From: a virus
DNA: 24,518 nucleotides
Strand: one strand, 5' to 3'
IMG/VR virus record: IMGVR_UViG_3300042691_036104
Location: 1-24,518 of that record
Part shown: in pieces, positions 2,654 to 24,470 of the stretch
How positions within the stretch are numbered: the first letter of the stretch is position 1
How the letters are laid out: each line of letters opens with the position of its first letter
Program-made: the position numbers and the translations under genes
The notes under the pieces: model-generated
The model's database searches: none
The model's input: only the letters and a program-made list of their open reading frames with translations
What the model was told of the DNA's origin: nothing

Positions 2654-4377
2654 TGCGCGAAGTTCCCAATACAAATCCCAACATGCGCGTTTTGCTGGGA
2701 CCCGACGGCGAGCCGATCGACCGCTTGCGTCTGATGCGCGAAGAGGCCGCACCCACGCTCACGGGCGTGCGCACCGTCGATGCGCAGGATCCGTCGACGG
2801 GCCTCACGCCGGTGCGCTTGGCGTCGCTGCTGCGCGAGTCCGAGGCGGGCGACCCGCAGAGCTATTTCGAGCTCGCCGAGCGCATCGAAGAAAAAGACGC
2901 GCACTACGTCTCGGTGTTGCGCACGCGCAAGCTCGCCGCGTCGGCACTCGAACCTGTGGTCGAGGCCGCCAGCGACGATCCGCAAGACGTCGCGATCGCG
3001 GATTTCGTGCGCGACGTGGTGACGGGCGATGCGGTGCGAACGGCTTTGTTCGACATGCTCGACGCGATTGGCAAGGGGATCAGCGTTACCGAAATTCTGT
3101 GGGACCTCACCGGCGAACGGTGGGTGCCGAAGAAATTGAAATGGGTCGATCCGCGCTGGATCGATTTCGATCCACTCGACCGGCGCACGCCGATGCTGCG
3201 CAGCCAACCGGGCGAACTCGGGGCGGGCGCGCTCGCACGCCCGGACTCGCGCAGCACGCCCCAGCTGAAGCCGCTGGCGCCCTTCAAGTTCGTCGTCTGC
3301 AACATCCAAGCAAAATCAGGGTTGCCCGCGCGCAGCGGTTTGGCGCGGCCGGCCGCCTGGGTCTATCTGTTCAAAAACTTCGATCTCAAGAACTGGCTCC
3401 AGTTCGCCGAGATCTACGGCATGCCGCTGCGCGTGGGCAAATACCATGCGGGTGCCACGCCGGAGGAAAAGCGCACGCTGCTGCGCGCGATCGCCAGCAT
3501 CGCGGCCGACGCGGCGGCGATCATCCCGCAATCGATGGCCGTCGAATTCGTCGAAGCGAGCGGCAATCGCGACGGTGCGATGTTCGAAAAGTTCGCGACC
3601 TATTGCGATCTGCAGCTTTCCAAACTCGTGCTCGGCCAAACCGGCACCACCGATGCCGTCGCCGGCGGCTACGCGGTCGGCAAGGTGCAGAACGAGGTGC
3701 GCATCGACATTCGCGATGCCGATGCGCTGCAGCTCGCCCAATCGCTGCGGCGCGATCTCGTCGAACCGGTTGTCGATCTGAATTTTGGTCCGGCACCCAA
3801 CGGTGCCAAGCGCCGCTATCCGAATTTGCGCATGGCGTCGCCCAAGACGCTCGACGTATCGACCATGTCGGATGCGTTGACGAAGCTGGTACCGCTCGGC
3901 CTTGAGGTCGAAGCGAGCGTCGTGCGCGACAAGCTCGGCTTCGGCGATCCGAAACCGGGTGCGGTGCTGCTCAAAGCGCCGGCGCCGGCGCCGGCGCTGC
4001 CGGCCCCCACAATGCCGGCAGCCATGCCGCCAGCAACGGCCTCTGCCTCTTCGAGCGATGCCCTGGCCCGCGCCTTCCATGCGTTGGCATCCCGCCAAGC
4101 GGCGGATGCAAGCGACGATACGACGCGCATTGCCGCCAAGCTTGCGGCGGCGGCCGAGCCTGCGATCGCGGCGCAACTCGCGCGCATCGAAAAAGCCGTC
4201 GCGAGTGCCGGCAGCTTCGACGATCTGTCGGACGCGCTGTTGGGTTTGGCCGGCGAATTGTCGGCCGACGATTTCGCGGCAGCCATGCGCGACGGCATGA
4301 CGCTCGCCCATCTGTCTGGTGCAGCTGCAGTGCCCGCAGTCCGACCGCCCACTGCTCGATCCAGGCGCAAGCCATGA
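2653..4377 (+). CDS. DUF935 portal protein (Mu gp29-like)
   Basis: The product has 574 residues. The portal ring sits at the head vertex and passes DNA to the terminase motor. DUF935 features are clear: LTPVRLASLLRESEAGDP and YFELAERIEEKDAHYVSVL near the start, then KNWLQFAEIYGMPLRVGKY and ATPEEKRTLLRAI in the middle, and LGQTGTTDAVAGGYAVGKVQ further on. After about residue 440 comes an Ala/Pro-rich linker encoded by a GCGCCG microsatellite. It is followed by a helical tail (ARIEKAVASAGSFDDLSDALLGLAGEL) that many Mu-like portals share. The ATG at 2653 overlaps the terminase stop by one base, and the frame is open far upstream only as an antisense-type shadow. The stop overlaps the F-like gene by 4 nt. 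Confidence 0.95.
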   Translation: MREVPNTNPNMRVLLGPDGEPIDRLRLMREEAAPTLTGVRTVDAQDPSTGLTPVRLASLLRESEAGDPQSYFELAERIEEKDAHYVSVLRTRKLAASALEPVVEAASDDPQDVAIADFVRDVVTGDAVRTALFDMLDAIGKGISVTEILWDLTGERWVPKKLKWVDPRWIDFDPLDRRTPMLRSQPGELGAGALARPDSRSTPQLKPLAPFKFVVCNIQAKSGLPARSGLARPAAWVYLFKNFDLKNWLQFAEIYGMPLRVGKYHAGATPEEKRTLLRAIASIAADAAAIIPQSMAVEFVEASGNRDGAMFEKFATYCDLQLSKLVLGQTGTTDAVAGGYAVGKVQNEVRIDIRDADALQLAQSLRRDLVEPVVDLNFGPAPNGAKRRYPNLRMASPKTLDVSTMSDALTKLVPLGLEVEASVVRDKLGFGDPKPGAVLLKAPAPAPALPAPTMPAAMPPATASASSSDALARAFHALASRQAADASDDTTRIAAKLAAAAEPAIAAQLARIEKAVASAGSFDDLSDALLGLAGELSADDFAAAMRDGMTLAHLSGAAAVPAVRPPTARSRRKP

Positions 4378-22836: not shown

Positions 22837-23595
22837 ATGCGTAGCGACTACCGCTGTTCGTGCGGGCGGCTGCTGGCGAGGGCCAGCGGGCCGCTTGACG
22901 TCGAGATCAAGTGCCCGCGTTGCGGCGCGCTCAACCGTTTCAAAACCGAAGGGCCGTCGAGCCCATCAAACCCCGAACGCCGCCGCGCGTCTCTCGAAGG
23001 AGAATTACGTGCATGGCGTGGCTCTATGTGCCGGTGCTGCCGGCCTCGAACTCGGACTCCACATCGCCGATCCCAACTACCGAACCGTCTGCTATGCCGA
23101 GCGCGATCCTTTCGCGGCCGCGATCCTCAAAGCGCGCATGCAAGACGGCTCTCTCGACGACGCCCCGATCTGGGACGACGTCAAAGCCTTCGATGGGCGC
23201 GCCTGGCGCGGCCGAGTGGATATCCTCACTGCCGGCTATCCGTGCCAACCGTTCTCGTCGGCCGGCCACCGCAAGGGCTCGGCCGACCCGCGTCATCTGT
23301 GGCCCGCGATCAAGCACATCGTCGGCGAGATGCAGCCCCGCCGCGTTTTCGTCGAAAACGTGCGGGGCCATCTCACCCTCGGTTTCGACCGCGTCGTCGG
23401 CGACCTTCAGCAACTGGGTTTCCGCGTTGCAGCTTGCGTCGTCGAAGGCGTCGAAGTCGGCGCGAGCCATGCGCGGGCCAGGGTTTTCGCTTTGGCCGAC
23501 GCCGACCGCGATCCGCAACGGCAATCATGTGTGGATGCAGATCGGCCCGCGCGGCCTGCGTTTCGTGCCCATCCCCGACGCGTGGCAGACGATGA
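22837..23595 (+). CDS. com: Com-like zinc-finger translational regulator (only the first ~45-60 codons supported)
   Basis: The N-terminus YRCSCGRLLARASGPLDVEIKCPRCGALNRFK is a clear relative of Mu Com, with Cys at 7, 9, 26 and 29. In Mu, Com is a 62-residue zinc-finger protein that binds the com-mom mRNA and exposes the mom start. Here the first spacing is CxC instead of CxxC. After about residue 57 the frame overlaps the methyltransferase and runs open to a TGA at 23593-23595 (252 codons). That tail is Arg/Pro-rich and looks like a shadow of the methyltransferase, so a stop may have been lost or the tail may be tolerated. ATG 22837 has a modest AGGG site. No mom homologue follows. Confidence 0.7.
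   Translation: MRSDYRCSCGRLLARASGPLDVEIKCPRCGALNRFKTEGPSSPSNPERRRASLEGELRAWRGSMCRCCRPRTRTPHRRSQLPNRLLCRARSFRGRDPQSAHARRLSRRRPDLGRRQSLRWARLARPSGYPHCRLSVPTVLVGRPPQGLGRPASSVARDQAHRRRDAAPPRFRRKRAGPSHPRFRPRRRRPSATGFPRCSLRRRRRRSRREPCAGQGFRFGRRRPRSATAIMCGCRSARAACVSCPSPTRGRR
22992..23011 (+). promoter_or_regulatory. Strong Shine-Dalgarno and small hairpin at the methyltransferase start
   Basis: AAGGAGA (22997-23003) lies 5 nt before GTG 23009, inside the com frame, and decides the methyltransferase start. TCTC (22992-22995) can pair with GAGA (23000-23003) around GAAG, covering part of the ribosome site. The stem has only 4 bp. It is a possible counterpart of the Mu mom translation-inhibitor structure that Com opens; this is inference. 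Confidence 0.5.
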
Positions 23596-23890
23596 GCATC
23601 AGCGGGGCCGCACTCGCGTGGTCGGTGCTGTGGGACGTGACGCAGGCGGCCGGCGGCGCCAGGCGTTCGCTCGTATCGGAGTCTTCCCGCCCGGTCCTGG
23701 CGAGCTTGTGGCCTGGAAGAATTGGCTCCGCCTACGCCCGCACGCTGAACCCACGCTTCCTCGAGGCGCTGATGGGCTGGCCCGACGGCTGGACCGATCC
23801 CGCGTCGCCGGTAACGGGGTTCTCGCATTGGCTGCAGCGCATGCGTACCGAACTCTCGACCGTGCCCTTGCGTCAGCGGACTTAGATTGA
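23009..23890 (+). CDS. C5-cytosine DNA methyltransferase
   Basis: The product has 293 residues from GTG 23009. It moves a methyl group from SAM to cytosine C5. All main motifs are present: I ALCAGAAGLELGL (5-17), II YAERD (29-33), IV GYPCQPFSSAG (76-86, catalytic Cys79), VI FVENV (114-118), VIII SHARARVFAL (153-162) and X AGNGVLALAA (267-276). The short variable region (about 165-225) would be the target-recognition part. It probably protects phage DNA from restriction, replacing mom. The frame is open upstream to an ATG at 22685, but the region before 23009 is unconserved and overlaps com. The last 417 nt also encode a second conserved frame. Confidence 0.9.
   Translation: MHGVALCAGAAGLELGLHIADPNYRTVCYAERDPFAAAILKARMQDGSLDDAPIWDDVKAFDGRAWRGRVDILTAGYPCQPFSSAGHRKGSADPRHLWPAIKHIVGEMQPRRVFVENVRGHLTLGFDRVVGDLQQLGFRVAACVVEGVEVGASHARARVFALADADRDPQRQSCVDADRPARPAFRAHPRRVADDEHQRGRTRVVGAVGRDAGGRRRQAFARIGVFPPGPGELVAWKNWLRLRPHAEPTLPRGADGLARRLDRSRVAGNGVLALAAAHAYRTLDRALASADLD
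23469..23885 (+). CDS. Overlapping frame, WPTPT/LMGWPDGW-type phage protein (138 aa)
   Basis: Nested in the methyltransferase gene in the +1 frame. From ATG 23469 it reads MRGPGFSLWPTPTAIRNGNH, then PIPDAWQTMSISGAALAWSVLW, and near the end LNPRFLEALMGWPDGWTDP and TGFSHWLQRMR. This is the pattern of a protein or C-terminal domain often attached to or overlapping phage cytosine methyltransferases. By hand count about 85% of its codons end in G/C, against about 61% for the methyltransferase frame over the same bases, so codon bias favours it. No good ribosome site is visible before 23469; it might begin by internal initiation or as a +1 frameshift product. Its function is unknown. Confidence 0.6.
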   Translation: MRGPGFSLWPTPTAIRNGNHVWMQIGPRGLRFVPIPDAWQTMSISGAALAWSVLWDVTQAAGGARRSLVSESSRPVLASLWPGRIGSAYARTLNPRFLEALMGWPDGWTDPASPVTGFSHWLQRMRTELSTVPLRQRT

Positions 23891-24426: not shown

Positions 24427-24468
24427 ACCTACCACAAGCGTTAGTCTCTAACGCTTGTGGTAGGTTTT
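24427..24468 (+). terminator. Strong intrinsic terminator, 18-bp perfect stem
   Basis: ACCTACCACAAGCGTTAG (24427-24444) and its exact complement (24448-24465) enclose the loop TCT, and the right arm runs into TTTT (24465-24468). It lies 22 nt after the stop of the secreted-protein gene. The left flank has few A residues, so bidirectional action is uncertain. It separates the cargo gene from the right end of the element. Confidence 0.92.
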
Positions 24469-24470
24469 AA

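Follow-up and report, generated by a model that had tools for sequence, protein, structure and literature searches.

Does the methyltransferase locus at the right end of one viral sequence record encode one protein or two? The locus lies in IMG/VR virus record IMGVR_UViG_3300042691_036104 (24,518 bases; the whole stretch of DNA that was analyzed, hereafter the window); tail-fibre genes and a com-like zinc-ribbon gene occupy the right end of the record along with the C5-cytosine methyltransferase. A preliminary description of this sequence had proposed real dual coding in 417 bp (23469-23885) at the end of the methyltransferase, read in frame 0 and in the +1 frame. Our analysis indicated that the locus probably specifies a cytosine-C5 DNA methyltransferase of two polypeptides, the products of two overlapping genes, here called alpha and beta, that share one ribosome-binding site. 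The alpha open reading frame (ORF; frame 0; 23009..23890, on the plus strand like all features below) starts at GTG, ends with the stop codon at 23888-23890, and encodes a predicted C5-methyltransferase large domain of 293 amino acids with motifs I-VIII and X. The beta ORF (+1 frame; 23013..23885; 290 amino acids) opens with an ATG 4 nt past the alpha start, and the two stops are separated by 5 bp. The sequences, stop positions, and codon bias of the preliminary description were correct (third-position G+C over 23469-23885 of 84% in the +1 frame versus 61% in frame 0, noted there as ~85% and ~61%); its 417-bp overlap was too short, since the +1 frame has no stops from 22911 to 23885 in the window and spans the whole methyltransferase, with a likely start at ATG 23013.

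The frame 0 translation, which contains ...GASHARARVFALAD...FPPGPGELVAWKNW...ADGLARRLDRSRVAGNGVLALAAAHAYRTL up to its stop, matched PF00145 (residues 3-163, E = 2e-27) and phrog_363 (E = 1.7e-52). It carries motif I, PCQ (motif IV), ENV (motif VI), motif VIII (GASHARARVFALA; 23459..23497), an FPPGP segment conserved in frame 0 (FPPGPGELVAW; 23684..23716), and, together with motifs I-VIII in frame 0, motif X (VAGNGVLALAAAHAYRTL, with GNGV; 23804..23857). Its predicted structure (mean predicted local distance difference test [pLDDT], 74) has the C5-methyltransferase large domain fold and aligned to M.HhaI 12-327 (Z, 20.9; root mean square deviation [RMSD], 3.0; 186 residues), with a confident motif X helix and an unstructured recognition stretch at residues 178-214 (pLDDT <50). 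Alpha by itself lacks the recognition domain and motif IX that a single-chain C5 methyltransferase would contain; these were found only when alpha and beta were taken together.

The preliminary description had proposed collecting homologues, and among the 190 loci fetched (80 of them by alpha motifs alone; some contigs entered the set twice, and duplicates were removed before later tests) the beta motif kept its +1 relation to alpha in 177, including 76 of the 80 picked by alpha only. Judged from these sequences, the two-frame arrangement is conserved in more than 100 viral and prophage sequences, and it occurs in isolated phages of Synechococcus, Pseudomonas, Acidovorax, Acinetobacter, and Paenibacillus, as well as in C75C1 and ct2t2046. 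It persists in phage genomes of 41-50% G+C, where an open +1 frame is itself improbable; C75C1 (41% G+C) has 446 open +1 codons against 9.9 stops expected. The alpha frame was open from motif VIII to motif X in 104 of 106 loci, though this stretch is unconstrained in frame 0. Annotation varies among these phages, with alpha alone annotated in Synechococcus phage Yong-M2-251, beta alone in Pseudomonas phage phPA-G and Acidovorax phage Alfacinha3, and two overlapping genes in different frames, both called DNA cytosine methyltransferase, in Paenibacillus phage Bloom (L195 1414-2469 and 1616-2320). No paper treating this overlap as general in phages was found in searches of an open-access library.

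By itself, an open +1 frame carries little weight in this G+C-rich gene, part of which is free of stops in all three frames; in the window alone, the +1 frame stayed open in 0.6% of synonymous shuffles (P(open) 0.006). Comparative sequence tests place +1 coding far beyond chance. Among closely related pairs, a few of them duplicates that were removed for the binned analysis, substitution rates at codon positions 1/2/3 were 0.096/0.054/0.240 across motifs I-VIII and 0.217/0.120/0.164 in the overlap; between the window and its closest relative (L002), they were 0.080/0.067/0.213 in motifs I-VIII and then 0.173/0.063/0.110. The binned phase analysis (five-codon bins, 49 independent pairs) located a switch where motif VIII ends, +1 phase across the recognition region (where frame 0 gave no signal), a mixed phase at FPPGP, +1 phase again at motif IX, and frame 0 phase at motif X, where the rates were 0/0.008/0.233. 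Stop avoidance extended further 5′: over motifs I-VIII, the +1 frame held 1 stop versus 59.1 expected in the loci picked by alpha and 5 versus 75.9 in those picked by beta, the neighbouring genes, as a control, held 1416 versus 1405 (1.01x), and the third frame showed mild depletion (0.57 and 0.80 of expected). In the recognition region, with close relatives excluded, the +1 profile scored 38.9 versus 5.6 for synonymous shuffles, and the third-frame control 7.6 versus -4.1. Shuffle scoring was dropped as sole proof, since the third-frame control was inflated by codons shared through ancestry; the argument therefore rests on stop avoidance and on the substitution-phase analysis, which is independent of the shuffles. 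The frame-by-frame constraint that the preliminary description had proposed to measure was found in part as dual coding would have it, with the +1 frame constrained in the recognition region and motif IX, frame 0 at motifs I-VIII and X, and a mixture at FPPGP. Because only the +1 frame is constrained over most of the recognition region, true two-frame constraint is confined to approximately the last 60 codons, with stop avoidance in both frames elsewhere.

These results bear directly on whether the +1 frame, yielding no product, could be a passive shadow of frame 0, which is conserved, G+C-rich, and codon-biased. Long +1 ORFs arise easily at high G+C, the third frame also had inflated shuffle scores among relatives that share codons, and it was likewise short of stops in motifs I-VIII (0.57), all of which would suit a shadow. 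However, a shadow does not account for the flip of phase to +1 where frame 0 is unconstrained, for two loci (L161 and L164) that keep the +1 frame intact in that region while frame 0 is broken, for the lack of +1 stop avoidance in neighbouring genes, or for the arrangement in 41-50% G+C phages. We consider this explanation scarcely credible overall, and for the recognition region the phase analysis already refutes it unless the alignments are systematically wrong.

What, then, does the +1 frame encode? Beta begins with MAWLYVP, continues through a long, weakly conserved stretch, and ends with a recognition domain and motif IX, its 23469-23885 portion reading MRGPGFSLWPTPTAIRNG...LNPRFLEALMGWPDGWTDP...TGFSHWLQRMR. 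The variable target-recognition region (LWPTPTAIRNG...; 23490..23744), along which the alpha frame is an unconstrained open spacer, begins with the W-P-T-P segment past motif VIII, and motif IX (LNPRFLEALMGWPDGWTD; 23745..23798) follows, overlapping ADGLARRLDR of alpha (23768-23797). In single-chain relatives, namely four of the loci (L016, L021, L024, and L025) and Mycobacterium phages Rita, Moonbeam, and Papez, the motif IX element (e.g., RRLTPMECERLMGWPDGWTD) and then motif X occur in one frame, and phrog_116 aligns with the N-terminal half of alpha and then with motif IX of beta, in that order. On account of the motif IX identity and the W-P-T-P position, beta comprises the recognition region and motif IX (small domain) and alpha motifs I-VIII and X (large domain), a split that fits the domain division described for C5 methyltransferases (PMC3404938; PMC5944983). 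Since alpha matches phrog_363 and beta matches phrog_1008 and phrog_27243 (23009-23890), these separate protein families appear to be two frames of one gene. The +1 product is not another known phage sequence type, as had been suggested, but the methyltransferase's own recognition domain and motif IX, and the accompanying suggestion that it might change target recognition is, in essence, probably correct. The helix of motif X packs back against the large domain, and moving it out of place was suspected of rendering C-terminal fragments of other enzymes insoluble (PMC5944983); such packing may be the reason that motif X stays with alpha.

We also considered whether beta is an overprinted gene whose function (e.g., as a regulator or anti-restriction protein) has no relation to the methyltransferase. 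Domain and family profile searches annotated no domain over most of the length of beta, a profile search against PDB sequences gave only chance-like matches, no fold match emerged, and there is a known case of an HNH endonuclease concealed in a different frame of a phage methylase (PMC11855218). Against an unrelated gene, beta ends in a canonical motif IX, which in single-chain relatives is placed between the regions of motifs VIII and X; alpha without beta has neither a recognition domain nor motif IX; and W.TP modules are repeated in beta of multi-module loci. An unrelated beta thus seems very unlikely.

The start codons offer a route to both products. A beta start at ATG 23469 was rejected, as it is not conserved even in the closest relative, and no conserved start codon was found near motif VIII. 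The +1 frame is kept stop-free over motifs I-VIII and so is probably translated from its beginning, with ATG 23013 as the likely start. A Shine-Dalgarno-like AAGGAG (22997..23002; from sequence) lies 6 nt 5′ of GTG 23009 and 10 nt 5′ of ATG 23013. Start codons of both frames stood within a few bases of each other in 118 of 126 loci (third-frame control, 7 of 126), the beta start being 4 nt after an alpha start in 69 loci and 2 nt before one in 52 (some loci allow both). Two start classes were seen, GTGcATG (4 nt apart) in the window and NTGTGG in the second class; the beta N-terminus M(x)WLYxP is common to both, and in 22 loci a +1 stop immediately precedes the beta start. AUGUG and GUGUG sites open both frames in E. 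coli (PMC9841429), and the NTGTGG class bears the same signature. The proposal of real dual coding was borne out, at the level of sequence, by frame conservation, substitution phase, stop avoidance, and dual starts, alongside the motif assignment.

The preliminary description had left open whether the second product came from an overprinted gene or from +1 recoding after motif VIII. Our data favour the former; recoding is disfavoured because the +1 frame is stop-free from the gene start and has its own start codon beside that of alpha. In the recoding scenario, a programmed +1 frameshift just past motif VIII would yield one chain in which motifs I-VIII are followed by the recognition domain and motif IX, and the unshifted product would supply motif X. 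The abrupt phase switch at the end of motif VIII, the lack of a conserved start codon by the junction, and the poor conservation of the upstream stretch of beta are all in keeping with such an event. It leaves unexplained, however, the stop-free +1 frame over motifs I-VIII (1 versus 59.1 expected), the paired start codons, and the 22 loci in which a +1 stop at the alpha start is followed directly by the beta ORF; inspection of the junction by eye, with no systematic search, showed no conserved slippery sequence. We therefore regard a frameshift as unlikely. In one locus (L170, ~3250-3290), a (CA)n dinucleotide repeat lies at the frame-switch site and could permit phase variation or be an assembly error.

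Several observations weigh against two separately initiated genes. The sharp phase switch right at motif VIII is one, and bins -35 to -20 ahead of that motif hint at extra, unexplained constraint. Over the first ~155 residues of beta, amino acid conservation was barely above the control (+1 z, 6.4; third-frame z, 5.5) and, save for the M(x)WLYxP start, was not established over it. The beta model was poor (mean pLDDT, 56), with residues 1-122 disordered and values of 66-83 past residue ~170, and its fold search against the PDB gave no useful match (best VIA Z, 2.7, to unrelated chains), the model being too poor for a conclusion. In Paenibacillus phage Bloom, beta starts at an internal ATG, away from the alpha start. 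In L161 (2501-4057) and L164 (2507-3949), frame 0 is interrupted by many stops in the stretch from motif VIII to motif X, an open +1 frame of 509-549 codons holds five to six W.TP modules, and motif X sits in a separate short frame 0 ORF, possibly with its own ATG; with frame 0 broken there, a third piece or recoding would be needed in these loci.

A split of this kind has precedents. M.EcoHK31I, a two-polypeptide C5 methyltransferase (YGGCCR), has the same motif split as the window locus when compared by its published motif description, and Lee et al. reportedly described in 1995 that its small gene overlaps the large gene in another frame. Its large polypeptide carries motifs I-VIII and X and its small polypeptide motif IX (PMC3404938). 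The predicted recognition domain of M.EcoHK31I is on the large subunit (PMC3404938), whereas here it is placed on the +1 product by coding phase; also unlike M.EcoHK31I, the overlap here runs from adjacent starts across the whole gene and is found in phages and prophages. M.AquI likewise consists of two polypeptides split past motif VIII in the variable region, but both motifs IX and X are on its small subunit (PMC3404938), whereas motif X here stays on the large one. An M.AquI-like arrangement was seen in Gordonia phage Float294 (genes 62/61; L194 1297-2530), where gene 62 carries motifs I-VIII and gene 61, in the +1 frame, carries the recognition domain together with IX and X. Adjacent starts also open two frames in cases of ambiguous initiation (E. 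coli pqiA, tamA, and narQ; Thermus rnpA-rpmH) (PMC9841429); unlike the AUGUG/GUGUG cases, both products here are conserved halves of one enzyme, and the window has GTGcATG. The hidden HNH element of ShiLan likewise places a second protein within a phage DNA methylase gene in a different frame (PMC11855218), although that element is a homing-endonuclease insertion, whereas beta is the methylase's own missing half. In one locus (L163 2501-3775), the +1 frame carries, after motif IX and before motif X, an HNH/zinc-finger-like insert, with frame 0 still open; this insert resembles the hidden HNH elements of actinophage methylases (PMC11855218). The arrangement described here is apparently a new and widespread variant on a known theme, the split C5 methyltransferase.

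Directly 5′ of alpha lies the com-like zinc-ribbon gene of the Mu Com family (22837..23010; PF10122, E = 1.1e-12; phrog_6417). Its stop adjoins the alpha start in relatives and has been lost in the window (TTA versus TAG in the closest relative), so that the com-like ORF continues in the third frame across the methyltransferase (22837-23595). Near the right end of the window (~24428-24470), a long perfect inverted repeat (CCTACCACAAGCGTTA...TAACGCTTGTGGTAGG) followed by TTTT is terminator-like.

In our proposed model of two overlapping genes, the single Shine-Dalgarno sequence would serve both GTG 23009 and ATG 23013, so that a single mRNA would be translated into either alpha or beta. Alpha would fold as the S-adenosylmethionine-binding catalytic large domain, with motifs I-VIII and the C-terminal motif X helix joined by the unconstrained spacer, and beta would supply the small domain with the target-recognition region and motif IX, its long, mostly disordered N-terminal stretch being a by-product of +1 reading through motifs I-VIII. 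From the sequences, we infer that both products are translated and would assemble into an enzymatically active methylase, which presumably shields phage DNA from restriction. Beyond the window, we lean towards a very widespread phage family in which frame-ambiguous initiation (ATGnATG or NTGTGG, with one ribosome-binding site) yields, from genes that overlap completely, the two essential subunits of a single enzyme; in com-linked members, this choice could also be controlled by the RNA-binding protein Com. If this is correct, the annotation of many phage methylases covers half an enzyme (alpha only or beta only, and both in few), which would explain methylases that seem to have no recognition domain. 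The family would provide a broad natural case of frame-ambiguous initiation that yields a pair of proteins working together (until now, this mechanism has been demonstrated in only a few bacterial genes), and a directly testable case of long-lived, strongly constrained dual coding, in which the recognition half, being separated, would be free to change almost independently of the catalytic half.
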